Shown here: piece after piece, positions 15,459-56,620 of the stretch
Position numbering within the stretch: the first letter of the stretch is position 1
Layout: each line of letters starts with the position of its first letter
NCBI GenBank assembly: GCA_019843655.1
Contig: JACDQD010000005.1
Coordinates: 26,856,954 to 26,920,953 of the forward strand
Length of the DNA stretch: 64,000 bases
Source of the DNA: Lethocerus indicus
Lineage: Eukaryota > Arthropoda > Insecta > Hemiptera > Belostomatidae
Direction of reading: 5' to 3'
The notes under the pieces: generated by a model
What the model was told of the DNA's origin: nothing
Databases searched by the model: none
The model's input: only the letters and a program-made list of their open reading frames with translations
Translations under genes and position numbers: made by a program

Positions 15459-19267
<3,809 letters not shown>

Positions 19268-19278: not shown

Positions 19279-19869
19279 ATTTTTTTAACCTTTTTTTTAT
19301 TTTTTGTACAATCAACTACGTATAGTTATGGGTACAACTGATGAGTGTTTTCTTTTCGCATGAATGTCTCGATAAAAGAGGCCACCCAATAATGGCACTT
19401 TTTCCAGATGAACAGTTTATGGCTTCGGGCTAAGAAGATCTCTGGGCCAGTGGCGTTTGAGCCGACGCTGGGGAGATAATGGATGGGAAACAGAGGAAAG
19501 GGACTGAACGAGTGGATTTGGATGTGGAGAGAGGCGGGAATGGAATTTAAGGAAGCGTGATTTTGCGACTTCGTCGACTGTCGGTATGTTGAGGTCATTA
19601 TGGATTGTTCGGTTAGAAACATACCAGGGAGCATTAAGGATGGTACGAAGGACTTTTGATTGGAATCTCTGGATGCGGGCGATGTTGGATTTCTTAGCGG
19701 AACCCCATAGCTCTATTCCGTAAGTCCATGTCGGTTTTAAAATGGATTTGTATATTATAAGTTTGTTGTCTACTATCAGTTTTGATGTATTTTTCAAAAG
19801 ATGTCTCAGCAGTCCAAATTTGTGGTTGAGGTCTGTTCTTTTGAGTCGCGTATGGGGGTTCCACGTGAG
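19279..19869 (-). mobile_element. 5'-truncated Jockey-clade LINE with 11-bp TSD
   Basis: A 591-bp fragment of a non-LTR retrotransposon on the minus strand. It carries the C-terminal part of the reverse transcriptase protein, a short 3' UTR and an interrupted A-rich tail (T-rich at about 19279-19310 on the plus strand). The coding match starts exactly at the inner edge of the right TSD, which is the expected signature of 5' truncation during target-primed reverse transcription. The TSDs are perfect over 11 bp. Confidence 0.85.
19417..19869 (-). pseudogene. Jockey-like reverse transcriptase, C-terminal fragment
   Basis: About 150 residues starting with LTWNPHTRLKR, followed by the block typical of Jockey-clade proteins after the RT core: KSILKPTWTYGIELWG, then QSKVLRTILNAPWYVSNRTIH, then DLNIPTVDEV and FHSRL. 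The catalytic RT motifs (F/YADD) lie upstream in intact elements and are missing here, so the copy is dead. The frame is open to its natural stop at 19417. A few residues upstream of LTW in the same open frame belong to flanking DNA, because the TSD lies there. Family assignment rests on recalled motif patterns, not a search. Confidence 0.85.
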
Positions 19870-19880
19870 TCTCGAAATAT
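19870..19880. repeat. Target-site duplication, right copy (LINE)
   Basis: Second copy of TCTCGAAATAT, matching 19268-19278 exactly. Confidence 0.8.
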
Positions 19881-20284
19881 TAATGTTCCAACATGCTCCG
19901 ATTTTTACGTACGTAGAACAATAAATATATAATATGTGAATGCACATACAACAACCCGCTCGTTAGTGTGTTGTTTTCAACTCTGAGAAATGTATTGAAT
20001 TGAATTATTGAAACAATTCTACGGAAAAATTATTTCCATTAAATTTTCGAGCTTACTTATAAAATTGAACAAGGAAGCATTTCCGTGAAACTGTTTTTTG
20101 CTAAGTACAAAAATAAGTTTTAGACAATACAGCGTTGCCAATACATTAATTTTTATCTTTGGTTTTGTCTCTCCATGGCATGGGCCACCTGAGACCCTCC
20201 TTTTGGATTTTTGCAGCTGCCCCCACTGAACGTTCCGATGTGCCCCTGGGGGGCCGTACGCCCATGCTGGCTTACTGGGCGGCC

Positions 20285-31900: not shown

Positions 31901-32509
31901 ATCAAGCAGGTGAAATAGGTTACTGACAGCAGGGACGTTAAAACACGATCGGTGATAATTCTCAGTTTACTGTTATTCACTCTGTGATTTTCCCTCTTTT
32001 TCCTGGAAAAAAAGGGTAAAGGATAAATGTAAAATCCATTTCGAGCGGGGCCGCATTTGCCTAAACAGACCCACAAACCCTAGAATCTAGCATTCTACTT
32101 TTATCGACTCCTTTTCTCTTATTCCAACCCTTCAAACCGGAGCCCATTCATAGACAGTAAAACGTCCCGATGGGCGTCCCTCGGTACTTTACACCAGAAC
32201 GGTGTTTCTTTATACAATGCGTTCTCCCTTTCGGAACAATATAGAACCGTGATGATGCCGCACACTACTCGATTAAAAAATATCAAGTAATTACTGATAA
32301 AACAAAACTCTGTGCTGCATAAATTTGAATGGATCGAAACTTTTTTCCTTAATTACACAGAACAAAAAAAATTTATATTGTCCATTCTCAAAAATGAAAG
32401 CAGGTACTGGACACAACGCTGATTTTTTAAATTATAATAGAACATCATTTTATTATATATTTATTATTTGAATAGCGAATTAAAGCTCGCCCAAACGCGT
32501 TTTAATTAG
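28998..32509. other. Intergenic or intronic DNA after the tRNA
   Basis: No gene recognised. A 117-codon frame at 30057-30410 is basic and hydrophilic but has no recognisable motif. A poly(C) tract lies at 31540-31554, next to an 8-bp hairpin (GCCAGTGT...ACACTGGC) at 31506-31525. The left TSD of the composite element begins at 32510. Confidence 0.5.
29016..29023 (+). terminator. Pol III terminator of tRNA-Thr
   Basis: Eight consecutive T residues on the sense strand, 19 nt after the mature tRNA 3' end. A T-run of four or more is the usual Pol III stop signal. Confidence 0.85.
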
Positions 32510-32520
32510 AATATAATGTG
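32510..32520. repeat. Target-site duplication, left copy (composite PLE)
   Basis: AATATAATGTG, identical to 46872-46882. The two copies lie directly outside the ends of the 14.35-kb composite, which identifies its outer limits as the product of one insertion. Confidence 0.85.
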
Positions 32521-32564
32521 TAGGTTTGTGATGTTTCTGTCTCCTCTCGCTGGTTAGGTCTTTT

Positions 32565-32601
32565 GCTAGACCGGTTTCGGCTGCTCGCCATCTTCAGCAG
32601 C
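32565..32601 (-). ncRNA. Hammerhead ribozyme motif, left PLE arm
   Basis: Minus-strand match to the hammerhead core: stem I GCUG, then CUGAAGA (fits CUGANGA), an unpaired U, stem II GGC-GAGCA-GCC, then GAAA, a short palindromic ACCGGU that would form a minimal stem III (possibly as a dimer), and a GUC cleavage triplet. The predicted cut lies between 32569 and 32568. Stem I closes with UAGC (one G-U pair). PLEs of many animals are known to carry such ribozymes. The sequence is identical to the right-arm copy. Confidence 0.8.
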
Positions 32602-32979
32602 GGTGTTAGTCACTGTTAGCACTTTGGATGTTTTTTGGGGATCCTCACTGCACTGTTACTTTCACATGTACTGTAATGTTTGTCAGTATGTCAGTCGTTT
32701 ATATATGTGTTCTGTTATTGTTATTGGGGGTTATGTTTGTCTTCGGATTTTGTTAATCCGTTTTCTAGGTGAGTCAGATTGTCGGAAGGGGGTGGTGTGG
32801 TGCTAGGGTGGGTGTGATCCTTTAAGAGGACATAGGTGTAAATATCGCGTCACTCTGGGAATTCATTTTCTCATTTATAATGTTGTTTTTCTTATGTTTG
32901 AAGATCTCCAGGTTTTCTATAATGTCTAATTCTTTTCCTTTTTTACCTGGGTGTAATAATTTTAAAGATCTTGTGATGT

Positions 32980-33591
32980 TCATTGTGTTTCGTGCCCGGT
33001 GTTTATAATATGGTTGGCGAAATTGGAATCTGTTTTGCTTTTTTAATAGTTTTGTTATTGTATTGGCGGGATATCGGTTGTTCTTTGCAACTTGGAGGAT
33101 TGTTTTATGTTCATTGTCATATTTTTCGTTGGATAAGGGGTATTTGTTTAGTCTGTCTGTTAGGTATTTTAGTGCCGCTAGTTTGTGTTGGTGTGGGTGG
33201 TTGGATTGTTGGTGATGATGGTGTCTGTGGTGGTATCATCGCTAAAAATGTCAAATGTGAGTCTTTTTCTTTTTTTATGGTGACGTCTAAGAAATTAATT
33301 TGGTCGTCTTTTTCTTTCTCTATCGTGTATTGTATTTTTGGGTGGAGTTCGTTTGGGAATTCTATTGTTATATTCTTTGTCAGGTGTGATTTTAAGAGTT
33401 TAATCCTTTCTTTGATTGGTATAGACGTGTAATAGTTATTTATGTCCAATGATATTAATTTTGTTTTTCTAGTTGTTTTAGTTGTGTTTATGGAGTTTAT
33501 TAGTTCTAATGTGTTTTTGCTGTGTAATTGTTGTTTAGGGTGATTTTTTCTTTAATTATTTTCGCGATGTGTTAGGCTATTTTATATATCC
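32980..33591 (-). pseudogene. PLE reverse transcriptase remnant, GIY-YIG deleted
   Basis: Reads from about 33586 leftwards. RT motif A is visible as SLDINNYYTSIP, with the catalytic Asp at about 33446, and the later INFLDVTI block is present. The central RT part with the glycine-proline motif and the YxDD box is missing between them. Relative to the right arm there is a further 299-bp deletion that removes most of the GIY-YIG endonuclease, leaving only its end (FANHIINTGHETQ and the stop at 32980-32982). Two frame breaks after HLTF are shared with the right arm. Not functional. Confidence 0.8.
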
Positions 33592-33615
33592 ACGGATAGC
33601 GGATATATAAAATAG
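33577..33615. repeat. Foldback at the left PLE/satB junction
   Basis: CTATTTTATATATCC (33577-33591) and its exact reverse complement (33601-33615) flank a 9-nt spacer. The right junction contains only one half of this inverted repeat, at 45461-45475. The extra half on the left may be the scar of snap-back DNA synthesis at the junction. Confidence 0.75.
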
Positions 33616-34036
33616 AGTTGTCGATTGGATAGCGGGGGTCGTGGGGGAGGTTCCGGGCAGCACGGAGGGTAGGAGGCCGGGGGGACTATGTGAGTTGTCG
33701 ATTGGATAGCGGGGGTCGTAGGGGATGTTCCGAGCGGCAAGGCGGGTAAGTGGCAAGAGGGAGGATGTGAGTTGTCGATTGGATAGCGGGGGTCGTGCCG
33801 AAGTTCCGGATGGACCGGCGAGTAGGTGGCCGGAGAGAGGATGTAAGTTGTCGATTGGATAACGGGGGTCGTGGGGGAAGTTCCGGGTGGACCGGCGGGT
33901 AGGAGGCCGGGGGGACGATATGAGTGGTCGACGGGCTAGCGAGGGTCGTGGGGTAAGTTCCGGGTGGCACGGTGGGTAAATGGCCGGAGGATGGATGTGA
34001 GTTGTCGATTAGAAAGAGGGGGTCGTGAGGGACGTG
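33615..34036 (-). repeat. satB satellite, left block (77-bp monomer)
   Basis: About five and a half monomers. Anchor GAGTTG-like sites at 33615, 33692, 33769, 33845, 33922 and 33999 give a 76-77 bp period. It is G-rich on the plus strand, the reverse complement of the right satB block. Individual monomers differ by several substitutions. The block passes into satA near 34037 at a stretch where both repeats share a CCGGG...CGTGGG-like core. Confidence 0.85.
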
Positions 34037-37000
34037 CCGGGCACCGTGGGACGGACAACGGGACGCTCACTACACACTCCGAGAGGGAAACACGAGTCGT
34101 CGGTCAGGCCGACTCAACAAGTCTGTTCTCTCCCGGAGGCGGGGCTCCCGGCCGAACACATTGGGCCGCGCGCTGGACGCATCTCGTAAGGGCCAACGAG
34201 TGGTCATCCCGGGCACCGTGGGACGGACAACGGGACGCTCACTACACACTCCGAGAGGGAAACACGAGTGGTCGGTCAGGCCGACTCAACAAGTCTGTTC
34301 TCTCCCGGAGGCGGGGCTCCCGGCCGAACACATTGGGCCGCGCGCTGGACGCATCTCGTAAAAGGCCAACGAGTGGTCATCCCGGGCACCGTGGGACGGA
34401 CAACGGGACGCTCACTACACACTCCGAGAGGGAAACACGAGTGGTCGGTCAGGCCGACTCAAGTCTGTTCTCCCAGGTCGGGGCTCCCGGCCGAACACAT
34501 TGGGCCGCGCGCTGGACGCCATCTCGTAAAGGCCAACGAGTGGTCATCCCGGGCACCGTGGGACGGACAACGGGACGCTCACTACACACTCCGAGAGGGA
34601 AACACGAGTGGTCGGTCAGGCCGACTCAACAAGTCTGTTCTCTCCCGGAGGCGGGGCTCCCGGCCGAACACATTGGGCCGCGCGCTGGACGCATCTCGTA
34701 AAAGGCCAACGAGTGGTCATCCCGGGCACCGTGGGACGGACAACGGGACGCTCACTACACACTCCGAGAGGGAAACACGAGTGGTCGGTCAGGCCGACTC
34801 AACAAGTCTGTTCTCTCCCGGAGGCGGGGCTCCCGGCCGAACACATTGGGCCGCGCGCTGGACGCCTCTCGTAAAAGGCCAACGAGTGGTCATCCCGGGC
34901 ACCGTGGGACGGACAACGGGACGCTCACTACACACTCCGAGAGGGAAACACGAGTGGTCGGTCAGGCCGACTCAACAAGTCTGTTCTCTCCCGGAGGCGG
35001 GGCTCCCGGCCGAACACATTGGGCCGCGCGCTGGACGCATCTCGTAAGGGCCAACGAATGGTCATCCCGGGCACCGTGGGACGGACAACGGGACGCTCAC
35101 TACACACTCCGAGAGGGAAACACGAGTGGTCGGTCAGGCCGACTCAACAAGTCTGTTCTCTCCCGGAGGCGGGGCTCCCGGCCGAACACATTGGGCCGCG
35201 CGCTGGACGCCTCTCGTAAAAGGCCAACGAGTGGTCATCCCGGGCACCGTGGGACGGACAACGGGACGCTCACTACACACTCCGAGAGGGAAACACGAGT
35301 GGTCGGTCAGGCCGACTCAACAAGTCTGTTCTCTCCCGGAGGCGGGGCTCCCGGCCGAACACATTGGGCCGCGCGCTGGACGCATCTCGTAAGGGCCAAC
35401 GAATGGTCATCCCGGGCACCGTGGGACGGACAACGGGACGCTCACTACACACTCCGAGAGGGAAACACGAGTGGTCGGTCAGGCCGACTCAACAAGTCTG
35501 TTCTCTCCCGGAGGCGGGGCTCCCGGCCGAACACATTGGGCCGCGCGCTGGACGCATCTCGTAAGGGCCAACGAATGGTCATCCCGGGCACCGTGGGACG
35601 GACAACGGGACGCTCACTACACACCTACGAGTGGTCGGAGGCCGACTCAACAAGTCTGTTCTCTCCCGGAGGCCGCTCCTCGGGCCGAACACATTGGGCC
35701 GCGCGTGGCATCTCGTCAAGGGGCAACGAGGATCCCGGCACCGTGACGGACAACGGACGACAACGGGACGCTACACACCACTCCGGTGGTGGTCAGGCCG
35801 ACTCAAGCAAGTCTGTTCTCTTGACGGCCAAAACTCACACTCCGAGAGGGACGATCTCACGAGGGTCGGTCCAACAAGTCTGTTCATTCCTGCCGGAGGA
35901 TCGGACAACGGCTCCCGACGCTCGACTACACACTCTCCGGAGTCATCCCGGGTCACCGACGGACAACAGGACGCTCCGCCGACTCAACAAGTCTGTTCTC
36001 TCGGAGGCGGGGCTCCCGGCCGCACATCTCCCGGCACCGTGGGACGGACAACGGGACGCTCACTACACACTGAAACACGAGTGGTCGGTCAGGCCGACTC
36101 AACCGGGGCTCGAACAAGGACGCCTCTCGTAAAGGCCAACGAGTGGTCAATGGGACGGACAACAGGACGCTCACTCATCGAGAGGGAAACACGTCAGGCC
36201 GACTCAACAACCGTCGGTCAGGCCGACTCACTGGAGAGGGAAGTGGTCATTCCGAGAAACACGAGTGGTCGGTCAGGAGGTGCAGGGCTCCGAACACATT
36301 GGGCCGCGCGCTGGACGCCTCTCGTAAACAACTGCACCGTGGGCCGCGCGCTGGACGCCTCCGCAGGGCTAAAAGGCCACGCCTCTCGTAAAAGGGTCTG
36401 AGTGGTCATCCCGGGCACCGTGGGACGGACAACGGGACGCTCTACACCTTGAGGGAAACACGAGTGGTCGGTCAGGCCGACTCAACAAGTCTGTTCTCCC
36501 TTACGGAGGTGGGCTCCCGCCGAACACATTGGGCCGCTGGACGCATCTCGTAAAAGGCAACGAGTGGTCATCCCGGGCACCGTGGGACGGACAACGGGAC
36601 GCTCACTACACACTCCGAGAGGGAAACACGTGGGGTCGGTCAGGCCGACTCAGCAAGTCTGTTCTCTCCGGAGGCGGGCTCCCAGGCCGAACACATTGGG
36701 CCGCGCGCTGCGACGCCTCTCGTAAAGGCCAACACGAATGGTCATCCCGGGCACCGTGGGACGGACAAGGGACGCTCACTACACTCGAGGAGGACGGTGG
36801 TCAGTCAGGCCGACTCAACAAGTCTGTTCTCTCCAGGCGGGGCTCCCAGCCGAACACATTGGGCCGCGCGCTGGACCTCTCGTAAAGGCCAAGCGAATGG
36901 TCATCCCGGGCACCGTGGGACGGACAACAGGACGCTCACTACACACTCCGAGGAAAACACGAGTGGTCGGTCAGGCCGACTCAACAAGGTCTTCTCTCCC

Positions 37001-40000
37001 GGAGTCAGGGCTCCCAGCCGAACATTGGGCCGCGCGCTGGACGCATCTCGTAAAAGGCCAACGAATGGTCATCCCAGGCACCGTGGGACGGACAACGGGA
37101 CGCTCACTACACACTCCGGAGGAGAAACACGAGGTGGTCGGTCAGGCCGACTCAACAAGTCTGTTCTCCCGGAGGCAGGCGGGGCTCCCGGCCGAACACA
37201 TTGGATTGGGCCGCGCGCTGGACGCCTCTCATGTAAAGGTCCAACAGAGTGGTCATCCCGGGCACCGTGGGACGGACAACAGGACTCTCACTACACACCT
37301 CCGAGAGGAAACACGAGTGGTCGGTCAGGCCGACTCAACAAGTCTGTTCTCTTACGGAGCGGGGCTCCGGCCGAACACATTGGGCCGCGCGCTGGACGCA
37401 TCTCGTAAAGGCCAACAGTGGTCATCCCGGGCACCGTGGGACGGACAACAGGACGCTCACCACTCCGAGAGAAGCGGTGGTCGGTCGAGGCCGACTCAGC
37501 AAGTCTGTTCTCTCCCGGAGGCGGGCTCCCGGCCGAACACACGGTGAGCCGCGCGCTGGACGCATCTCGTAAAGGTCCCAGCGGAATGGTCATCCCAGGC
37601 ACCTTGGGACGGACAACGGGACGCTCACTACACACTCCGGGGAGGAAACACGAGTGGTCGGTCAGGCCGACTCAACAAGTCTGTTCTCGGAGTCGGGGCA
37701 CCAGCCGAACACATTGGGCCGCGCGCTGGACGCCTCTCGTAAAAGGCCAACAGGTGGTCATCCCGGGCACCGTGGGACGGACAACGGGACGCTCACTACA
37801 CACTCGAGGGAAACACGAGTGGTCGGTCAGGCCTCAACAAGTCTGTTCTCTCCGGAGGCGGGGCTCAGCCGAACACATTGGGCCGCGCGCTGGACGCATC
37901 AAGTAAAGGCCAACAGGTGATCCGGGCACCGTGGGACGGACAACAGGACGCTCACTACACACTCGGGGAAACACGGTCGTGGTCAGGCCGACTTCAACAA
38001 GTCTGTTCTCTCCCGGGCGGGGCGAACACATTGGGCCGCGCGCTGGACGCATCTCGTAAAGGCCAACGAGTGGTCATCCCGGGCACCGTGGGACGGACAA
38101 CGGGACGCTCACACACACTCAGGGAAACACGAGTGGTCGGTCAGGCCGACTCAACAAGTCTGTTCTCTCCCGGAGGCGGGGCTCCCGGCCGAACACATTG
38201 GGCCGCGCGCTGGACGCATTTCGTAAGGGCCAACGAATGGTCATCCCGGGCACCGTGGGACGGACAACGGGACGCTCACTACACACTCCGAGAGGGAAAC
38301 ACGAGTGGTCGGTCAGGCCGACTCAACAAGTCTGTTCTCTCCCGGAGGCGGGGCTCCCGGCCGAACATTGGGCCGCGCGCTGGACGCATCTCATAAAGGC
38401 CAGCAGTGGTCATCCGGGCACCGTGGGACGGACAACAGGACGCACTACTACACACTCCGAGGGAAACACGAGTGGTCGGTCAGGCCGACTCAACAAGTCT
38501 GTTCTCTCCCGGAGGCGGGCTCCCGGCCGACACATTGGGCCGCGCGCTGGAATGCATTTAAATGAGGGCCAGCAGATGAATCATCCCGGGCACCGTGGGA
38601 CCCGGACAACGGGACGCTCACTACACACTCCGAGGAGGGAGTTAGTCGGTCAGGCCGACTCAGCAAAGTCTGTTCTCTCTCGAGCAGGGCTCAGCCCGAA
38701 CACATTGGGCCGCGCGCTGGACGCATCTCGTAAAGGCCAACGGTGGTCATCATCAGTGGGACGGACAGCAGGACGCTGCACACCCGAGGAGGAAAACGAG
38801 TGGTCGGTCAGGCCGACTCAACAAGTCTGTTCTCTCTCCCGGAGGCGGGCTGACCCGAACACATTGGGCCGCGCGCTGGACTGCATCTCGAAGTAAAGGA
38901 GCCAGCAGTGCAGATGTCCAAGACGTGTGGGACGGACAACGGGACGCTCACTGCACTCCGAGGGAGGCACGAGTAGTCGGTTAGGGCCGACTCAACAGGT
39001 CAATTCTCTGAGGCGGAATACATTGGCCGCGCGCTGGACGCATCTCGTAAAGGCCAACAGTGAGTCATCCCGGGCACCGTGGGACGGACAGGACGCTCAC
39101 TACACAGAGCTTGAGAGAGTGAGTCGGTCAGGCCGACTCAACAAGTCTGTTCTCTCCCGAGTCAGAAGCTCCGGCCGAACACATTGGGCCGCGCGCTGGA
39201 CGCATTCGTAAGGCCAACGAATGGTGGTCATCCCGGGCACCGTGGGACGGACAACGGGACGCTCACTACACACTCCGAGAGGAAACACGAGTGGTCGGTC
39301 GGCCGACTCAACAAGTCTGTTCTCTCCCAGGAGGCGGGGCTCCCGCCCGAACACATTGGGCCGCGCACTGGTGCATCTCGTAAGACCAGGTGGTCATCCC
39401 AGGCACCGTGGGACGGACAACAGGACGCTCACACACCTCCCGAGAGCACGAAGTGGTCGGTCAGGCCGACTCAACAGGATCTGTTCTCTCCCGGAGGCGG
39501 GGCTCCCGGCCGAACACATTGGGCCGGCGCTGGACGCACTGTTCACAGTAAGGGCCAACAGATGGTCATCCCGGGCACCGTGGGACGGACAGGACGCTCA
39601 CTACACACTCCGAGAGAAACACGGTGGTCGGTCGAGGCCGACTCAACAAGTCTGTTCTCTCGGAGGCAGGGCTCCCGGCCGAACACATTGGGCCGCGCGC
39701 TGGACGCTCTCGTAAAAGGTCTACGAGTGGTCATCCCGGGCCGTGGGACGGACACAGGACGCTCACTACACACTCCGAGAGAGAAACACGGTGGTCGGTC
39801 AGGCCGACTCAACAAGTCTGTTCTCCCGGAGCGGGGCTCCGGCCGAACACATTGGGCCGCGCGCTGGACGCCTCTCGTAAAAGGTCAACGAGTGGTCATC
39901 CCGGCACCGTGGGACGGACAACAGGACGCTCACTACACTCGAGAGGAAACACGGTGGTCGGTCAGGCCGACTCAACAAGTCTGTTCTCTCCCGGAGCAGG

Positions 40001-41391
40001 GCTCCAGCCGAACATTGGGCCGCGCGCTGGACGCTCTCGTAAAGGTCTACAGTGGTCATCCCGGGCACCGTGGGACGGACAACAGGACGCTCACTCACTA
40101 CACTCCGAGGAGAAACACGAGTGGTCGGTCAGGCCGACTCAACAAGTCTGTTCTCTCCCGGAGGCAGGGGCTCGGCCGAACACATTGGGCCGCGCGCTGG
40201 ACGCCTCTCGTAAAAGGTCAGGTGGTCATCCCGGGCACCGTGGGACGGACTACAGGACGCTCACTACACACTCCGAGGAGAGCACGGTGGTCGGTCAGGC
40301 CGACTCAACAAGTCTGTTCTCTCCCGGAGGCGGGGCTCCAACCGAACACATTGGGCCGCGCGCTGGACGCCTCTCGTAAAGGCCAACAGTGGTCATCCCG
40401 GGCACCGTGGGACGGACAACGGGACGCTCACTACACACTCCGAGAGGGAAACACGAGTGGTCGGTCAGGCCGACTCAACAAGTCTGTTCTCCACGGAGGC
40501 GGGGCTCCCAGCCGAACACATTGGGCCGCGCGCTGGACGCCTCTCGTAAAGGCCAACGAGTGGTCATCCCGGGCACCGTGGGACGGACAACGGGACGCTC
40601 ACCTCCGAGAGGGCACGAGTGGTCGGTCAGGCCGACTCAACAAGTCTGTTCTCTCCCGGAGGCGGGGCTCCCGCCGAACACATGGGCCGCGCGCTGGACG
40701 CCTCTCGTAAAGGCCAACAGGTGGTCATCCCGGGCACCGTGGGACGGACAACGGGACGCTCACTACACACTCGAGAGGGAAACACGAGTGGTCGGTCAGG
40801 CCGACTCAACAAGTCTGTTCCTCCCGGAGGCGGGGCTCCCGGCCGAACACATTGGGCCGCGCGCTGGACGCCTCTCGTAAAGGCCAACGAGTGGTCATCG
40901 GGCGCGTGGGACGGACAACGGGACGCTCTACACACTCGAGAGGAAACACGAGTGGTCGGTCAGGCCGACTCAACAAGTCTGTTCTCTCCCAGGCAGGGCT
41001 CGCCGAACACATTGGGCCGCGCGCTGGACGCCTCCGTAAAGGGCCAACGAGTGGTCATCCCGGGCACCGTGGGACGGACAACGGGACGCTCACTACACTC
41101 CGAGAGGGAAACACGGTGGTCGGTCAGGCCGACTCAACAAGTCTGTTCTCTCCCGGAGGCAGGGCTCCCGGAGGCATTGGGCCGCGCGCTGGACGCCTCT
41201 CGTAAAGGCCACGGTGGTCATCCCGGGCACCGTGGGACGGACAACGGGACGCTCACTCCTACACTCGAGGGGGACCACGGTGGTCAGTCGAATGGAAGCT
41301 CAGCAGTCTGTTCCTCCCAGGCAGGGCTCCGCCGAACACATTGGGCCGCGCGCTGGACGCCTCTCGTAAAGGCCAACGAGTGGTCATCCCG
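34037..41391. repeat. satA satellite (172-173 bp monomer)
   Basis: Roughly 43 tandem monomers. In the clean part (to about 35620) the anchor CGCTGGAC falls at 34171, 34343, 34510, 34683, 34856, 35029, 35201, 35374 and 35546, giving 172-173 bp spacing with one 167-bp unit. Monomers are nearly identical, differing mainly at a CTCGTAAGGGCC/CTCGTAAAAGGCC site that partly alternates. From about 35625 to the gap they carry many small deletions and G-to-A changes, and mean spacing drops to about 165 bp. The monomer contains the hairpin GTCGG-TCAGG-CCGAC. Two of the three plus frames have no stop codon, which explains the long false ORFs. The array runs into an assembly gap, so copy number is a minimum. 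Confidence 0.93.
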
Positions 41392-41491
41392 NNNNNNNNN
41401 NNNNNNNNNNNNNNNNNNNNNNNNNNNNNNNNNNNNNNNNNNNNNNNNNNNNNNNNNNNNNNNNNNNNNNNNNNNNNNNNNNNNNNNNNNN
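41392..41491. other. Assembly gap (100 N)
   Basis: Exactly 100 N, the conventional placeholder for a gap of unknown length. satA lies on its left and degenerate satB on its right, so the satA/satB junction on this side is not seen. Confidence 0.98.
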
Positions 41492-44400
41492 TTATTCTTT
41501 CTGGTTTTACGTGTTGTGCGTTTCTTGGATTTTTGCATGATTTCTTGCTAGTTTGCCGGATACACCCTCTTACATCCTCCTGCTGGAGCCCTTTGCTTCA
41601 AGGCCCTTGAACTCTCGCATGAACCTTGCTAGTCTGTCGACACCCACATCCTCCTGCTGGCTCTCCTACCTGGGGCTGCTGCCCTGAACCTCCCCTCGCT
41701 GAACCCTGCTAGCCTGTCGACAACTCACATCCTCCTGCTGGCCTCCTACCTGCTGTGCTGCCCTGAACCTCCTCGATTGACCCTATGGGTTGTCGATAAT
41801 TTTAAGGGTTTTTTGTTGGTTGGGATGGCAAGTGTTTTTTTGGCGGCCTTGCATTGGTACTTTTGTGGTTTTGCTTGGGGTGTTTTTGGTGGTGGCGGTT
41901 GATAATTTATTCTTGTTTTTTGTGTGTTTTGCCTTTCTTTGTGGACCCTTTTGCGTAGTTTTGTTGATACCTCTGGTATCTCTTCTTCTGGCTCCGGCCT
42001 CCTACCCGCCGTGCTGCCCTGAACCTCCCCACGACCGACCGCCAGCCCGTCGACAACCTCACATTCTCCTCCGTTTCCTACCGGCGTGCCGCCCCGAACC
42101 CTCCCCACGACTCCCCAGCCTGTCGACAACTTCACATCCTCCCTCCGGCTCCTACCTGCTGCCGCCTCGAACCTCCTCCTTCGACGACCCCACGCCGCTC
42201 GACCAATGGACATCACCTCCTCGACCCTACCCGCCGTGCCGCCCTGAACCTCCCCACGACCCCGCCAGCCCGTCGACAACTCACATCCTCCCTCCGGCCT
42301 CCTACCCGCCGTGCCGCCCCTGAACCTCCCTGCTAGCCTGTCGATAACTCACATCCTCCCTCCGCCTCCTACCTGCTGTGCTGCCCTGAACTCTCCACTT
42401 ACAATCCTGCTAGACTGCCGATAATCCTGCATCCTCCTCCTGGCCTCTTACCTGCTGTTTGCTGCCCCCTGAACCTCTCACATTCCCTCAGCCTGTCGAC
42501 AACCTACATCCTCCTGCTGGCTCCTCCCTACCCGCTGCCGCTGCTGCCCTGAACCTCCCCACGAACCCTGCTAGCCTGTCGATAACTCAACCTCCTGCTG
42601 GCCTCCCTCGGCCTTGCTAAGTGGGTTTTTATGAATTTTGGTGTTTGCTGACACGGTATTTTTTTGCGTGGCGGTGGGGTGTTTTGGAAGTGGATATTTT
42701 GTTTTGTTGATACGGTATTTTTTTTTGGTTTTTACGGTTGGGGTGTTTTTTTATGAACTTTTGGTGTTTGCTGACACTTATAATTTAAGCGGTTTCTTGG
42801 CCTGCTGTGCTGCTCTGAACTCCCTACTTCCACGAACCTCCTGCTAGCCTGTCGATAACTCTGGCATCCTCCTGCCGGGTTTCTACCTGCTGTGCTGCCC
42901 TGAACCTCGCATGAACCCTGCTAGCCTGTCGACAACTCCACATCCCTCCCCTCCGGGTTTCCCACCTACTGTGCCGCCCTGAATCCTTCCTACGCACCCC
43001 TGCTAGACTGTCGATAACCTCATCCTCCTGTGGCTGGTGGGGTGTCTTTTATGAGTCCTGTAGCGTGTTGATAACTGGTATTTTCTGCTGGAGCGTGTTG
43101 GGGTGTGTTTTTTGGAATTTTGCGTAGTTTGTTGATACGATTCTTCTTTCTTGCGGTGTTGGCTGGCTTGCTGTGCTGCTCTTGAATTTCTCTACATGGG
43201 ACCCTTGCTAGATTGGTGAAGCCGATAGTTCAAGTATCCTCTTCTGGCCTCCTCCTTGTACCTGCCGTGCTGCCCGTGAACCTCCCCACGACCCTGCTAG
43301 CCTGACAACTTTACATCCTCCTGCTGGCCTCTCCTACCTGCCAAAGGCCCCGATGACCTCCCTGAACTCCCCTGCTAGACTGTCGACAATCTCCCTACAT
43401 CCTCCCTGCCTCCTTACCTGCCAAGCTCATTGACCTCCCCTAGATTTTTTGGTGGTTTGTTGATACTTGGTACTTTTTGTTTCTGGAGCTGTTGGGGTGT
43501 TTCCATTTTTATGGCCTTGGTGGTTTGCTGGACCTCCTTTCTTGGAGTTTTCCAAGTGTTTCTTTCCCTACCCGCGATGATTTACCCGCCAAAGGCCGGG
43601 CGGTTTGCCGATAACTTAATCCTCTCTTGCTGGTTTCTCGGCCCTGTGTGCTGCCCTGAACCTCATGAACCCTGCCAGACTCCCCTGCTAGCTCTGTCGA
43701 CAACTCATCCCCTCGACTGGAGCCCTCCGCATTTGCTGCTGCCCTCACCTCTCGGATGACCTCCAGTCTAGCCTTGTCGTTGATAACCTATCCTCCCTTC
43801 CTGCTCCTCCGGACCTGCGTGCTGCTCCTGAACCTCCTCCCTTTACGATCCTGCCGTGTTTAGTACTCCCTCCGGATAACCTTCCCATCCTCCCGGAGCG
43901 AAGATGGCAAGTGTTTGAATTTTTTTATGATGAGTGGCGGTGCTGGCCCCGAACTTTATTTTTAGTGGCGGCAATTTTTCTTGTGCTGAGCTTTTGGTGG
44001 TTTGTTGAGGCGGTCCTCTCTTGGCAAGCTGGTTTTTACTTTTGAATTCCTAACCTAGTTTCTCGACAACCTTACATCCTTTCCGCTACGACGGCCTGCC
44101 AGCCCGTCGACAACTCACATCCTCCCTCGGCCTCCTACCGCCGTGCTCTGAACCTCCCTCACGACCCTGCTAGCCTGTCGACAACTCACATCCTCCCTCC
44201 GGCTCCTCCTACGTGCCTCCTCTGAACCTCCCTCACGACCCCTGCAGCCTGTCGACAACCACATCCTCCTCCTCCTACAACCCTCCACGACCCCCTTCGG
44301 CCGTGCCGCCCGAACCTCCCCACGACCCCTGGCCTGTCGACAACTTGCATCCTCCTCCGTTTACCCGGTTGCCGTGCCGCCTGAACCTCCTCACGACCCC

Positions 44401-45459
44401 GCTAGCCCGTCGACAACTCACATCCTCCTCTCCCTCCTACCTTTGCCGCCCGGAACCTCCCTCACGACCCCTGGCCGTCGACAACTCACACATCCTCCCT
44501 CCGGCCTCCTACCCGCCGTGCCGCCCGAACCTCACGACCCCGCTAGCCCGTCGACAACTCACATCCTCCTCCGGCCTCCTACCTGCCGTGCCGCCCTGAA
44601 CCTCCCTCCACGACCCCCGCTAGCCGTCGACAACTCACATCCTCCCTCCTCCTACTGGCGTGCCGCCCGAACCTCCCTCACGACCCCCGCTAGCCCGTCG
44701 ACAACTCACATCCTCCCTCCGGCCTCCTACCCGCCGTGCCGCCCGAACCTCCCCCACGACCCCCGCTAGCCCGTCGACAACTCACATCCTCCCTCCGGCC
44801 TCCTACCCGCCGTGCCGCCCGGAACCTCCCCCACGACCCCCGCTAGCCCGTCGACAACTCACATCCTCCCTCCGGCCTCCTACCCGCCGTGCCGCCCCGA
44901 ACCTCCCTCACGACCCCCGCTAGCCCGTCGACAACTCACATCCTCCCTCCGGCCTCCTACCCGCCGTGCCGCCCGGAACCTCCCCTCACGACCCCGCTAG
45001 CCCGTCGACAACCTCACATCCTCCCTCCGGCCTCCTATGCTGCCTGAACCTCCCCCACGACCCCCGCTAGCCCGTCGACAACTCACATCCTCCCTCCGGC
45101 CTCCTACCCGGCGTGCCGCCCGGAACCTCCCTCACGACCCCCGCTAGGCCGTCGACAACTCACATCCTCCCTCCGGCCTCCTACCCGCCGTGCCGCCCCG
45201 AACCTCCCTCACGACCCCCGCTAGCCCGTCGACAACTCACATCCTCCCTCCGGCCTCCTACCCGCCGTGCCGCCCCGGAACCTCCCTCACGACCCCCGCT
45301 AGCCCGTCGACAACTCACATCCTCCCTCCGGCCTCCTACCCGCCGTGCCGCCCGGAACCTCCCTCACGACCCCCGCTAGCCCGTCGACAACTCACATCCT
45401 CCCTCCGGCCTCCTACCCGGCGTGCCGCCCGGAACCTCCCTCATGACCCCCGCTATCCG
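41492..45459 (+). repeat. satB satellite, right block (77-bp monomer)
   Basis: About fifty 77-bp monomers, C-rich on the plus strand. In the clean part (about 44500-45459) successive GAACC anchors at 44822, 44899 and 44976 give exactly 77 bp. The core reads GCTAGCCCGTCGACAACTC then ACATCCTCCCTCCGG. Between 41492 and about 44100 monomers are degenerate; several stretches (about 41790-41980, 42620-42800, 43030-43160, 43440-43560, 43890-44060) keep the register but are strongly T-enriched, as if many C had become T. The array ends at GCTATCCGT against the PLE arm. Reading frames here are artefacts. Confidence 0.9.
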
Positions 45460-45465
45460 TGGATA

Positions 45466-46371
45466 TATAAAATAGTCAAACACATCGCGAAAATAATTAA
45501 AGAAAAAATCACCCTAAACAACAATTACACAGCAAAAACACATTAGAACTAATAAACTCCATAAACACAACTAAAACAACTAGAAAAACAAAATTAATAT
45601 CATTGGACATAAATAACTATTACACGTCTATACCAATCAAAGAAAGGATTAACCTCTTAAAATCACACCTGACAAAGAATATAACAATAGAATTCCCAAA
45701 CGAACTCCACCCAAAAATACAATACACGATAGAGAAAGAAAAAGACGACCAAATTAATTTCTTAGACGTCACCATAAAAAAAGAAAAAGACTCACATTTG
45801 ACATTTTTAGCGATGATACCACCACAGACACCATCATCACCAACAATCCAACCACCCACACCAACACAAACTAGCGGCACTAAAATACCTAACAGACAGA
45901 CTAAACAAATACCCCTTATCCAACGAAAAATATGACAATGAACATAAAACAATCCTCCAAGTTGCAAAGAACAACCGATATCCCGCCAATACAATAACAA
46001 AACTATTAAAAAAGAAAGAGAAGCCCACAACGAACCTCACAAACCCAGAAGAACCCCCCCAAAAATGGGCCACATTCACTTACACTGGCCACGAAACCTA
46101 CAAAATCACGAACATCTTTAAAAAACTAAAATTCAAAATATCATACAGAACAACCAATAAATTAGAAAAACACATCAGCACACAACAACAAAATAAACAC
46201 AAACAAAGCGGGATATACAAGATAACATGCGGATCGTGCGATGGAGTTTACATCGGCCAAACCGGACGAAAAATTGAGGACAGATACAAGGAACATATAA
46301 AAGCCATAAAATACAAAACAGATTCCAATTTCGCCAACCATATTATAAACACCGGGCACGAAACACAATGA
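45466..46371 (+). pseudogene. PLE reverse transcriptase / GIY-YIG endonuclease remnant
   Basis: Remains of a Penelope-like protein in three frames. An N-terminal RT part reads HSKNTLELINSIN, then motif A SLDINNYYTSIP (Asp codon 45606-45608). The core with the YxDD box is absent: LLKSHLTK runs almost directly into NELHPKIQYTIEKEK and INFLDVTI. Frame breaks near 45805 and 45865 separate this from the C-terminal frame, which opens near KLAALKYLTDRLNKYPLS and runs to TGA at 46369-46371. It contains a GIY-YIG domain: SGIYKITC, a second Cys, GVYIGQTGR, RYKEHI and FANHIINTGHE, matching the Cys/His-bearing PLE endonuclease type. The endonuclease segment looks intact; the RT cannot be active. Upstream sequence is replaced by satB. 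Confidence 0.87.
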
Positions 46372-46749
46372 ACATCACAAGATCTTTAAAATTATTACAC
46401 CCAGGTAAAAAAGGAAAAGAATTAGACATTATAGAAAACCTGGAGATCTTCAAACATAAGAAAAACAACATTATAAATGAGAAAATGAATTCCCAGAGTG
46501 ACGCGATATTTACACCTATGTCCTCTTAAAGGATCACACCCACCCTAGCACCACACCACCCCCTTCCGACAATCTGACTCACCTAGAAAACGGATTAACA
46601 AAATCCGAAGACAAACATAACCCCCAATAACAATAACAGAACACATATATAAACGACTGACATACTGACAAACATTACAGTACATGTGAAAGTAACAGTG
46701 CAGTGAGGATCCCCAAAAAACATCCAAAGTGCTAACAGTGACTAACACC

Positions 46750-46786
46750 GCTGCTGAAGATGGCGAGCAGCCGAAACCGGTCTAGC
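46750..46786 (+). ncRNA. Hammerhead ribozyme motif, right PLE arm
   Basis: Stem I GCUG (46750-46753), core CUGAAGA (46754-46760), unpaired U, stem II GGC/GCC with loop GAGCA, core GAAA (46773-46776), ACCGGU minimal stem III, H17 = C at 46782, then UAGC (46783-46786) closing stem I. The predicted cut lies between 46782 and 46783. The following bases form a hairpin GGTCT-AGCAAA-AGACC overlapping the cut site, which could compete with ribozyme folding. It lies about 380 nt after the endonuclease stop, near the element end. Confidence 0.82.
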
Positions 46787-46871
46787 AAAAGACCTAACCA
46801 GCGAGAGGAGACAGAAACATCACGAACCTACAGTATTCCAACCCCTCGCAGACCACAAAACAGGTATATCA

Positions 46872-46882
46872 AATATAATGTG
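46872..46882. repeat. Target-site duplication, right copy (composite PLE)
   Basis: AATATAATGTG, identical to 32510-32520. Confidence 0.85.
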
Positions 46883-49285
46883 ATTTCTGCGGACAACAAA
46901 CTTCCTCTCAATCAGAATAACCCGATTTCCTGCCCATTTATGAGCTTGCAATATTGCAATTTATACGGCCAGCCATTTTCGTCCCGATGCTAGCCGCGGC
47001 CGCAGAAATCTCATTAATTCCTTCCGACGTTAATGCGGTTATTTATCTGAGGGATAGGAATGAGGGGGCGGTAAGGTTTTGGAAAATTGGGAGACGTCCG
47101 AGGGTAGTTTCCTTTTTTTAGTGCCAAAGGGCTTTATTTTTATTCTGTAGCCAGGGAAATTTCACATCACTTGAATTCTGAACTGCGAAAAAAGCAAAAT
47201 CAATGAAATAGGAGTGTGAACTGTAAAAATATGGTCCGTGTATAAGAATCCCGCCTACACTGCCACTGCAGTTTAATTGCCATCTGTCAGTGATATAGAG
47301 GATGCACTTTTAAAGGTTTATAGGTGTTGATTATTATAATCTGTTACTCCTCACCGAGGACCCAATCAAAATCACAACAGTTTAGTAACAGATTATGTTA
47401 TCTTAAACATGCCGCTGTTGGCGGTGGTCCGGGGGAGGGGGTGTTCAAGCCGGTTCCCTTTAGCTGATTTCAGAATTGACCTTTCAGAAGACACCTGATT
47501 GATGATACGTACATTACCGGAACACAGGTCTGAGCCAAGCGAAACTTTCCAAGCGCTCGATTCTTCATCAACTTCCATCTCTCCACTCTCAACCAACTCT
47601 CTTATCACCAGATGACGCCCCCACCCCAAATTTCGCCACTACGCTTACGGCCTAATATACATCGGAGCGAATAAATTTAACTTTTTCCCGACCCTTTTTT
47701 TCCATTTTTTTGCGTGGCTTTATTTAGTAACCGCAATTTCTAAAGTATATTTCTAAAGCGTTGTCTCTAATTAGAGGTTGACTAATTGGAGGCACAGATG
47801 TATTTCATATTCCATTTTGTGAAGCAGTATGATATTTTATGATATTTATTTAGCTTAAGTTTTAAAATGTAATTATAGACATTGGTAATATTATATTTAC
47901 AATATATATCAAATTGCGAAAGGACACGGGGAAACTAATTAATAGAGTAGGAAATTTGGGCGAGTGACTATATTTATTTCTGTACATACAAAAAGTATGA
48001 TTATCGCAATGAGAACGTACGAATATATTCTGCGTACAATTTTAAATCTCCCAATAACTATTCAGATGTACTTCGTGAGCTATATACGGCAAGCTCGGTG
48101 CGACGCACTTGTTAGAAGGAAGAAAGTATCGGATAGTGAAGGACTGAAGGGTTCAAGTGGTGAAAATGGTGTCAAGTGTGAATGGGGCCCCGGGGGTTGT
48201 AAGGGGGCTGTCCCACACCCCAACCCACCCCCCTTAACGGCGACCCTTTCAATAAAAAGAAAAGAAAGAAAAAAGAATCCTATGTTATCATGCCCTGGAA
48301 TTACTCCCTACACCTACATACCTACGACTTACAGTCATATCTATGTAAATGTACATATACGAGTATATTCAGTTAGTACATGATTATATACGAGCTAGTT
48401 ATTTTCAACTCCTTCTTTTTATAAATTTGTATAAATATTTTCCGGTATTTTCTGCTTAGAAGTTAGGAGAGGAATTGCATTTCCAAATGTTCGTCAACCT
48501 TGTCCAACCTGACTGAATGAAATTGGATAACTTGTAAACTCCTTGCCGAGTTACGTGCCCTACATAGTCCTAACATAGCGGGCCGGATTGCTATATCAGC
48601 CAGCAATTCGAGTTTTATTTTTTTCTATAAGAAACGGAGGCGAGTTTAGCATTGTAGTTTAACATTGTATTTTTTTATGGTTTTTAATCATTTTGCATAT
48701 TTGAAGCTATCCCTGGAGAGTCTATTGTGGGGCAGGGTTAATTTCGGAGTGGTATTTCGCCGCGGGCCGGAAGATACCGGTTCGTATAATTTTACGGGCC
48801 GTAATTTTTCCTCATTCCAAGAAAATATGACCCCCGCCCACGGTAATTATTCTCTCAGGACAATGAAGTGAGGGCAGAACTCATATACAAGTCAACCGGC
48901 GCCGCGGCAGAATACGACTTCTCCTGCCAATACAGCTTCCACCACATAACGCGAAAATGATGGCAAGACCTAAATTCTAGCCACTTCTGGACGTATATGA
49001 AACCCAGCCGAGAAGAAATTTCATTATAGAGAGTCTCTATAAGGTTGTCAGTCAACCTTGATATTACTCGTCAGAAATATTACAAAATTATGTCTTCGGT
49101 TTAAAACACTGTCATTATGATTTCAGAAAAAATATCATTCCCAAAAAAAACCCCAGAAAAAAGAGCTACGTTTATAATCATAAGGTCAGTTTGGATTAAC
49201 TCTTCCAGTACCATAATATCAATAGAAAGTAAAATTTCTCATTGAAAGTCATCACGAGGTATATGGACACCCTCCGTATTCAGCA
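46883..49285. other. Intergenic or intronic DNA, no gene recognised
   Basis: AT-rich with GC-rich patches near 46970-47040, 47400-47460 and 48180-48240. The 139-codon frame at 47964-48383 has no family motif and ends in low-complexity sequence. No RNA gene seen. Confidence 0.5.
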
Positions 49286-50962: not shown

Positions 50963-51052
50963 CTACTGGTGATGGAGAATAGTCGAAACCGGTATACATA
51001 AGTTTCTAATAATATAATAGATTTCTAAAGCCTCGCGGATCCCGCAAAACAA
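50963..51052 (+). ncRNA. Diverged hammerhead/PLE terminal relic
   Basis: CTGGTGATGG (50966-50975), CGAAACCGG (50984-50992) and a GTA triplet line up with the hammerhead of the composite element. The conserved A of CUGANGA is G here and stem I has only two pairs, so activity is unlikely. Downstream, CCTCGCGGATCCCGCAAAAC lines up with CCTCGCAGACCACAAAAC at the end of the composite and short elements, supporting common origin. It is probably an older PLE subfamily. Outer limits and TSD are not visible. Confidence 0.5.
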
Positions 51053-53250
51053 ATGTTATCTGAATGTTATATTTAGAGGATAATTGACAATGGTCTATAA
51101 TTTGAAAACGGGGATCCCAGAGAGTATGGAATACCTGGGATAAGTTGGACATATATAAGCGAGCGAGAGGAGCGAACATGTAAGCAACATAATTCTAAGT
51201 TCGCAGGTTGACTGTTACAAACGATCCGCCGTATGAACTGGAAACTAATTTCGTATTTCCTCCACGGGCGATGAATCCTCGTTTACATGTTCGCCTTATT
51301 TATGACCGGATGATATTAATCGCATTGTTATAGGGCGGGTTCAATCTTCGGGGAATGAAATTCTGAAGGGTCGGCCTAATGAAAGGTAACTGAAATGTTA
51401 TATCATCATTCAGAAGAGGCGGCCTCATCGGCCGGCGGAGGTTTTTTCATTAAACTTTGATTATGATCTCGGGGAAAAAGAACATTCGGGCTAATCTCAG
51501 GTATTTTTCCTTCATCATACGCTTCCCAAAACAATGAGAAAATAGACTTTGAGTCGGATTCTTGTGAACTTATCAAACCTATAAAAAAAGAAATTAATAC
51601 TTAGGTTATTAAAGTATATAATAATATTAACATCGAATTTATAAATTAATTGAATGTTTATTTAATATATTGGAATAATTAATAGTAGAATAATTGTTGA
51701 CAATCTGTACGAGAGGATGTGTAACTGAAGGGGTATCGCTTCAATGTAACATTCACTTGCTGCACCCGTACATTACATGAGGAGCCGTGACGGAATAAAA
51801 TTCTTTAAAATTTAAATCTGGCCGCGAATATTTTTTTTCCGCTTATTCGGGCCGACAGAAGACCATTTAAAGGAAATATATGTGCGCGTTTATCTTAGTA
51901 ATTCTCTTAGTAAGGGGGGGGGGATCTGAACTGCACCCAGCGCGAGTTCTTAAAATACAGTTCTGATGCAAATTGGCGTTTTATTCTTCGCGGATCTCAA
52001 TTGTCTCCACAAGAACAATAACTCAGACCGGGTTAGGATGATTCATTTCTGTATCACCCATAATATTCCGTGTTTTTAACATTATGGTATCCAAAAAACA
52101 GAGCAATGCATTTATTTTCTTACGTATATTATAGTTTACAGTGAGAGTATAGGGGAGGAAATTTAATTATTATATAGATTGAAGATATTCGATGCACGAA
52201 CAAGCACCAAGACCTCAATTCGTAACACGGAAATAAAATAAAAATAATAGTTTGAAACCGGTCTAGCAAGAGACCAGGAGGATACACACGATTGGGGGAA
52301 AAGCTATGGTATAAAAATTACAACTCGAGAAGTGTGGAAAATTGAACATTCTAAGGTTTACCGTAATGGCCTTCGCCTACTGCTGCCGGGTCAAAAACTC
52401 GTCAAGACCGCGTTGGGCCGTAATTTAATGGGCAAGAGGAAACTACTGACGATAAACAATTTTTCTCCCAGGTTCTTCAAACTCGACCCGCACATAAAGG
52501 GAAGTGAATTAAGTCCTGAGATGCCGGGGGGGGGGGTGAAAGGGCGGTAGGGGGAGTGGCGCTAATCCGCCTACGGTTAGCCCCGACTCTAAGTTCTATC
52601 TTCTTGGAGATAATAAAGTTCATTAGAACAAACTTCAGACGCGGTACGGGAGCCGCGGGAGAATTACACGGCAGATTCGGCAGCGGGCGCCCGACTCAAA
52701 GCCGAATATACTGCAACGCAACACTCCGGGCAAATGCGGGCTGATTTATTCAAATCCCCCCCTACTGAGGGCCCGACTGGGTTCAGCTGTAATCGAACTT
52801 CGCACAGCGTTCGTGGCCCGACCAATAGAAAACCGATAACCAATTAACGAACAACATTGCGGTATGAGAGTCCACAACTAAATAAAATATTTCAATCGGA
52901 ATATAACTATCCGCCTCCAATTAACACAATTAAGTAGAAATGGCAAATCAATTGGCAAAATAAAAAATATAACTTTCATCATTATAACGATAGGAAGCAT
53001 AGGGGATGTCGAAAGATTATTATTAGTTTATTTTTCAAATGCCTAAATAAATAGAGTGAGACTGTGATTCATACATATCCATATACTTCGCACCACTTCC
53101 TTTTGAGTTTGCATCTTGTATATTTTCAGTAACTATTTCATTAGAAATTGGAATAATGTGTCAAATTACGAGCAGAGCAGGGAAATTGTTCCCTGGGCTT
53201 CAGATCACCCGGGTCCTGGATAGTAGTGGTCATGTCAGGGGGACTGCTTT
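51053..53250. other. Intergenic or intronic DNA around the PLE relics
   Basis: Apart from the truncated hammerhead at 52254, no gene or RNA is recognised. A G-run lies near 51916-51923 and another near 52527-52536. Confidence 0.5.
52254..52286 (+). ncRNA. 3' half of a hammerhead motif (PLE relic)
   Basis: GAAACCGGTCTAGCAAGAGACC differs by one base from the right-arm sequence after stem II. The CUGANGA half is missing and replaced by A/T-rich sequence. Probably a truncated PLE end. Confidence 0.5.
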
Positions 53251-56241: not shown

Positions 56242-56253
56242 GTAACTTCTTAT
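56242..56253. repeat. Target-site duplication, left copy (short PLE derivative)
   Basis: GTAACTTCTTAT, identical to 56609-56620. Confidence 0.85.
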
Positions 56254-56608
56254 CGTAGATTTCGTGTGTTTCTGTCTCCTCTCGCTGGCTTGGTCTTTTG
56301 CTAGACCGGTTTCGGATGCTCGCCATCTTCAGTAGCGGTGTTCATCACTTTTGGCACTTTGGATGTTTTTTGGGCATCCTCACTGCACTGTCACTGTCAC
56401 TATAAGGTGCTATATGTAAGGCGCTAATACTAAAATGTAAGTCAGACCTTAGTTAGGGGCTAGTATTAGGTGTGCCGTCCCATTGAAACTAGTAGCGCAT
56501 TAAACTGAATACACTACTACAATCACCACAGTACCAAACCAGCGAGAGAAGAACGAAACCTACAGTATTCCAACCCCTCGCAGACCACAAAAGAGATATT
56601 TTAAACTA
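56254..56608 (-). mobile_element. Short non-autonomous PLE derivative with 12-bp TSD
   Basis: A 355-bp element with the same two ends as the 14.35-kb composite. The left end has the minus-strand hammerhead region and the adjoining sequence (to about 56400). The right end has the plus-strand CCAGCGAGAG...CCTACAGTATTCC and CCTCGCAGACCACAAAA sequence. The middle is unrelated and includes a 9-bp inverted repeat (CTAATACTA 56424-56432, TAGTATTAG 56461-56469). It has no coding capacity. Perfect 12-bp TSDs show it inserted as one unit, evidently with enzymes supplied in trans. Confidence 0.83.
56300..56336 (-). ncRNA. Hammerhead ribozyme motif, short PLE derivative
   Basis: Minus-strand CUGAAGA core, GAAA, ACCGGU and GUC cleavage triplet as in the composite element. 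Stem I is GCUA/UAGC, four Watson-Crick pairs, where the composite has GCUG/UAGC with a G-U pair. The stem II side reads UCC instead of GCC, which weakens the inner pair. The predicted cut lies between 56304 and 56303. Confidence 0.78.
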
Positions 56609-56620
56609 GTAACTTCTTAT
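56609..56620. repeat. Target-site duplication, right copy (short PLE derivative)
   Basis: Second copy of GTAACTTCTTAT, matching 56242-56253. Confidence 0.85.

Follow-up and report, generated by a model that had tools for sequence, protein, structure and literature searches.

By what route satellite arrays spread to new sites remains an open question, and a retroelement that holds two satellites within a single target-site duplication (TSD) would offer one concrete answer. Such an arrangement is met in a stretch of 64,000 nucleotides of Lethocerus indicus (contig JACDQD010000005.1, positions 26,856,954 to 26,920,953; the whole stretch is referred to as the window), where a composite at 32510-46882 of the window consists, from the outside inwards, of an 11-bp duplication, inverted arms derived from a Penelope-like element (PLE) and two GC-rich tandem repeats, satB (77-bp unit) and satA (172/173-bp unit). 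The question is whether the satellites arrived with the element or grew within it afterwards. The explanation that we favour, with a probability of roughly 55%, is a non-autonomous PLE insertion carrying satellite DNA, in which an active PLE supplied the enzymes that inserted a satB-PLE chimera in trans. It is built on the TSD, the inverted arms, a tail present on one side, frameshifts and a PLE/satB breakpoint common to the two arms, and a further element in the window that has the same ends.

The outer limits of the composite are set by AATATAATGTG, found on the + strand at 32510-32520 and 46872-46882; scanning both strands of the window for exact matches returned these two copies, at the positions reported in an earlier note on this DNA, and no third. 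In random draws from the sequence outside the composite (those closer than 200 or 300 bp being skipped and kept in the denominators), an 11-mer taken at one point was met again no more than 60 bp from another in 11 of 200,000 cases, and any 11-mer was common to two 60-bp stretches in 64 of 50,000. The left copy directly abuts the left arm, and its last 2 bases may overlap the arm end. That the repeat also lies directly outside the right end needs qualification: homology to the left arm stops at 46832, 39 bp short of the right copy. These 39 bp (46833-46871, + strand), which have no counterpart on the left, are nevertheless element bases forming an extension of the 3' tail, because the stretch 46825-46867 recurs at 56557-56599 (95% over 43 bp).

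The latter positions belong to a second, separate PLE-derived insertion of 355 bp without satellite (56254-56608, + strand; 56242-56620 with its duplications), which provides an internal comparison and in which most of the tail recurs. It is flanked by a different TSD, the 12-bp GTAACTTCTTAT (56242-56253 and 56609-56620), so that the two insertions have short TSDs of variable length, 11 and 12 bp. Its left end is an inverted PLE tail, 90.5% identical over 147 columns to the left arm of the composite and stopping at the same CTAC point, and its right end is a direct tail with the same extension as that on the right side of the composite. Inverted head-to-head ends with a tail on one side are thus common to both insertions and, since the second has them without any satellite, the unequal inverted ends belong to the PLE family rather than to the satellite composite. 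The TSD, the one-sided tail and this second element together support the proposal of the earlier note that the outer ends of the composite derive from a single insertion. Weaker remnants of the PLE tail are also present at 15792-15853 and 52254-52275, with a weak one at 50963-50996 (E 0.14); such remnants suggest an old family that is abundant in this region.

The arms themselves were aligned from 45450-46832 on the right and 32521-33602 on the left, giving 1,078 matches and 4 substitutions in 1,082 aligned bases. The gaps are a 299-bp deletion in the left arm (corresponding to 46015-46313 on the right) and one of 2 bases at the outermost end, so that outside the deletion the arms are 99.6% identical. 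Their inverted arrangement, described previously, is hereby borne out, as is the near mirror symmetry in so far as it concerns the arms. The right, 5'-truncated arm (45459-46832, + strand) holds an endonuclease frame (P0001, 45817-46368), for which 69 of 108 candidates are relatives at E ≤ 0.001, headed by a Rhynocoris fuscipes protein labelled GIY-YIG in UniRef (47% identity), and the GIY and YIG residues are kept in nine aligned sequences. Relatives and retained residues identify a GIY-YIG endonuclease domain, as in PLEs of the endonuclease type. In the left arm (32521-33593, - strand) the deletion takes out the GIY and YIG residues. The reading frame shifts along the arm, and the same shifts are found in both arms; the two therefore derive from one dead, 5'-truncated parent, and the composite is unable to supply its own enzymes. 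The arms are 5'-truncated, frameshifted 3' parts of an endonuclease-type PLE. An origin of the mirror arms as an artefact of read fold-back was rejected, each arm having its own flank and a private difference, the deletion on the left and the tail on the right.

Read inwards from either arm, the border with the satellites follows the same order, CTATTTTATATATCCAC, then GGATAGC, then satB. This common breakpoint points to one ancestral PLE-satB fusion. On the left, 33 extra bases, including an inverted copy of the PLE end (33601-33615), lie between two copies of GGATAGC, forming a 15-bp palindrome with a 9-nt loop (33577-33615); among non-simple perfect hairpins with arms of at least 12 and loops of 3-20, which occur at two loci in the window, it is the longer one. 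Palindromes at inverted junctions have been explained by self-priming (PMC3846280) and, by analogy, self-priming may have taken place at the left PLE/satB junction. Nearly identical arms that share their frameshifts and their satB breakpoint would also be expected if an inverted segmental duplication, or the formation of a palindrome, had copied one satB-PLE border to the opposite side, the 11-bp repeat being a by-product or due to chance. We regard this as improbable: in BLAST of the arms (query from 32400, up to 47000) the flanks are alike only in the 11-mer, the second element likewise has its tail on one side only, and the satB units just inside the arms are not near-identical.

The satB units also bear on the relative age of satellites and insertion. 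The left array (33616-34036, - strand) comprises about 5.6 copies of the 77-bp unit that have diverged by substitutions, with one indel base in three windows, and the right array (41492-45458, + strand) is opposite in orientation, so that the description of satB as inverted blocks holds. The comparison took in 21 of the 22 monomers cut, leaving out one of 68 bp; identity is 80.0% among left monomers (10 pairs), 86.8% among right monomers (120 pairs, some degraded) and 79.5% between left and right (80 pairs), against 99.6% for the arms, and the mirror symmetry seen in the arms does not extend to the satellites. A monomer divergence of about 20% adjoining arms that differ by 0.4% makes the left satB look older than the insertion, favouring captured cargo. 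Furthermore, satA and satB gave no match to the PLE arms and for this reason look like cargo rather than tandemized parts of the PLE. Neither was found outside the composite, the best outside match having an E of 0.75 (three queries gave 20 such matches at E ≤ 10).

The same data apply to the possibility that the locus began as an ordinary inverted PLE insertion, comparable to the 355-bp one at 56254, within which satB and satA expanded, or into which they were inserted, at a later time. The second element demonstrates that satellite-free inverted insertions exist in the family, and satA at its left edge is 97-99% regular over approximately 1.4 kb, as after a recent expansion. However, on either side satB would have had to settle at an identical PLE breakpoint, and with its orientation reversed between the two, and substitution-diverged left satB would have had to come to lie beside nearly identical arms. 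We therefore consider later expansion unlikely, although it deserves serious attention. The common breakpoint and the diverged left satB beside arms only 0.4% apart lead us to favour carried cargo over expansion, which is not to be taken as proof.

The centre of the composite is a different matter. The satA array (34037-41391, + strand) is 97-99% regular to approximately 35416, falls to 64-65% in two windows at 35762-36451 and, indel-rich, lies at 80-95% from there to a 100-N assembly gap at 41392-41491, the true length of which is not defined by the assembly. To the right of the gap, satB is regular (95-97%) only at approximately 44726-45455 and breaks up leftwards into disordered sequence with T/G-rich fillers; on both sides, the repeats decay into indels towards the gap. 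The size of 14.35 kb initially given is therefore nominal owing to the gap and, of the central satA array, its presence inside the composite stands whereas its central place is unproven: satA runs from the left satB to the gap, and to the right of it BLAST gave only matches of 9-12 bases at E 7. The gap, the disordered repeats on its two sides, the failure to find satA on the right and the different make-up of satB could also be accounted for by a scaffolding error joining halves of two different satellite-bearing PLE insertions. Such an error is quite improbable in view of the 11-bp duplication at both outer ends and the chance rates given above (11/200,000 and 64/50,000); of all the evidence, the TSD speaks most strongly for a correct scaffold join.

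The fillers to the right of the gap had been considered as foreign sequence, an idea that was rejected. Five T/G-rich fillers, chosen by eye within 41780-44060, were tested against satB with C taken as T, yielding z values of 1.8, 6.7, 6.9, 6.6 and 0.2 against shuffled fillers and of 2.2, 7.0, 6.4, 5.1 and 0.6 against 200 shuffled satB units, with a maximum of 1.8 for 15 pyrimidine-rich control pieces. Thus, three of the five are convincing as satB with C read as T, and two are not. In the five alignments T is found at 311 of 454 satB C positions, a figure that is partly built in by scoring C as equal to T, and A at 1 of 132 G positions; in good satB, T is found at 3 of 405 C positions. The conversion affects C before A, C, G and T alike, which makes a process limited to one dinucleotide unlikely, and it is seen on the + strand only. 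Strand-specific miscalls of C-rich repeats, such as CCCTAA read as CTTCTT, have been described for nanopore data (PMC9414165). The C-to-T tracts may be a base-calling artefact of this kind or, less likely, true deamination, and the locus serves as a warning that base calling can make satellites beside an assembly gap look decayed.

With these reservations on the centre, the favoured insertion of a chimera in trans can be formulated as a sequence of steps. At an older genomic junction, a dead, 5'-truncated PLE would have been fused to a satB array. The enzymes of an active PLE, using RNA of this chimera in trans, would have cut an AT-rich target with an 11-nt stagger. DNA synthesis would then have been primed from the 3' end of the element on both sides, and two copies, or one folded-back copy, would have been joined head to head through the satellites. 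The expected outcome is that of inverted PLE arms outside, with a one-sided tail, inverted satB inside the arms and satA further in. We infer the RNA intermediate, the action in trans, the dual priming or fold-back, and the carriage of satA along with the chimera rather than its later expansion. That both strands can be processed by one enzyme is indicated by Penelope enzyme PAc, which cuts and extends both strands in vitro (PMC11167929). A broader proposal is that of a multi-copy, foldback-like non-autonomous family with PLE 3' ends and satellite insides, through which PLE machinery would carry kilobases of satellite DNA as retro-cargo to new sites and seed arrays there; it is distinctly doubtful, and in its boldest form it would have the strand-specific C-to-T satB tracts represent real deamination of cDNA instead of base-calling errors.

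Several points weigh against the favoured explanation, beginning with the fact that it rests on one locus, the centre of which is unreliable, so that the size, the central position of satA and a mirror symmetry between the satellites are unproven. The difference of about 20% between left and right satB is not expected from the plain fold-back of one copy; it therefore argues against a simple one-copy fold-back and for two different chimeric copies or a later turnover of the arrays. A satB that merely seems older than the insertion could in turn result from turnover of the arrays or from gene conversion between the two arms. As for the PLE assignment, Pfam PF01541 gave no match to P0001 and matched three of the four relatives tested, each below its cut-off, and a candidate reverse-transcriptase remnant matches RVT_1 over a short stretch and below the cut-off (E 0.023, 14.8 bits versus 29.6). 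Finally, BLAST of both arms against the window revealed no direct pseudo-long terminal repeat (pLTR, a partial tandem) next to either arm. This feature varies between published copies; the locus is accordingly classed with defective, non-autonomous PLE derivatives rather than with canonical elements.

Other searches added little. The tail segment CTGAAGATGGCGAGCAGCCGAAACCGG (46754-46780 and, inverted, 32571-32597) is one that we take to resemble a minimal hammerhead core, for which Rfam gave no match. Over 32400-47000 and up to E 5, Rfam returned a single match with an E of 1.8, far below its gathering score, which leaves a hammerhead ribozyme in the tail unsupported; PLEs have been reported to carry minimal hammerhead ribozymes (PMC7761336). 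The two matches in a search of solved structures (E 0.43 and 0.93) are not credible. Among viral contigs, 115 pattern matches to the endonuclease frame were obtained, none of which was upheld, and a 22-mer of satA and two 25-mers, one from the tail and one from satB, had no exact match. Elsewhere in the window, a reverse-transcriptase fragment of a non-LTR element, presumably Jockey-like, is present at 19420-19962 (minus strand), the best named matches of which, within the best 120 of 385 proteins, are from the water scorpion Ranatra chinensis (71% over 82% of the query, 80% over 45%). Like the Rhynocoris fuscipes match of P0001, these come from a true bug, so that both mobile-element proteins point to a host of this group as likely, with the reservation that such elements may pass between species.

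Among known systems, the architecture closest to that of the composite is found in Tetris, a foldback element of Drosophila virilis with long inverted ends made of an outer domain and tandem repeats, a variable middle part and TSDs of 8-10 bp, which has been linked to satellite arrays (PMC4079207). It may be asked, then, whether the composite is itself a foldback DNA transposon of the Tetris type, moved by a DNA transposase after a piece of PLE was acquired as outer domain. The plan of outer domain, inverted tandem repeats and middle part is shared, and long inverted ends with tandem repeats are present, by architecture only. Yet Tetris is regarded as a DNA transposon, probably of the Mutator superfamily, while in the composite the 3' part of a PLE serves as outer domain and the ends are unequal. 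Its outermost bases are the PLE 3' end, with the same stop point in an independent, satellite-free insertion, and the 39-bp tail on the right only departs from the equal terminal inverted repeats of transposase-cut ends. A Tetris-type origin is accordingly very improbable.

Mobile elements are also known as carriers or sources of satellite DNA, a role in which the composite resembles them: Helitrons carry satellite monomers, satellites derive from mobile elements, and Penelope is named among the sources, one catfish satellite being related to it (PMC12692304, PMC11955569). Unlike satellites of such derivation, satA and satB do not match the arms that enclose them. In the titles and the first parts of the abstracts listed by searches of an open-licence library on Penelope, no PLE insertion enclosing satellite arrays within one TSD is described. 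As to the PLE-ended mirror unit, the earlier note took it for an undescribed form, a view that does not hold, such ends having been published for the endonuclease-containing Penelope elements of the rotifer Adineta vaga, with head-to-head inverted ends, TSDs of 8-10 bp and an optional 31-bp tail on one inverted end (PMC3846280). Inverted pLTRs and short 3' extensions are listed among PLE features in a curation guide (PMC8969392). In A. vaga, host DNA is captured between the element ends, including an intron-bearing nonribosomal peptide synthetase (NRPS) gene with an 8-bp TSD, and defective copies have been moved in trans (PMC3846280). The composite shares with these elements the inverted ends, the short TSD, the one-sided tail, the palindrome at the junction and the presence of DNA between the ends. 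It differs in that the A. vaga cargo is a gene or a unique spacer and direct pLTRs are usual there, whereas here two tandem-repeat arrays lie between arms of more than 1 kb with no direct pLTR seen. The mirror-ended form is thus already known and the satellite cargo is the unusual part, for which the PLE/satB junction provides a testable signature of satellite transport.

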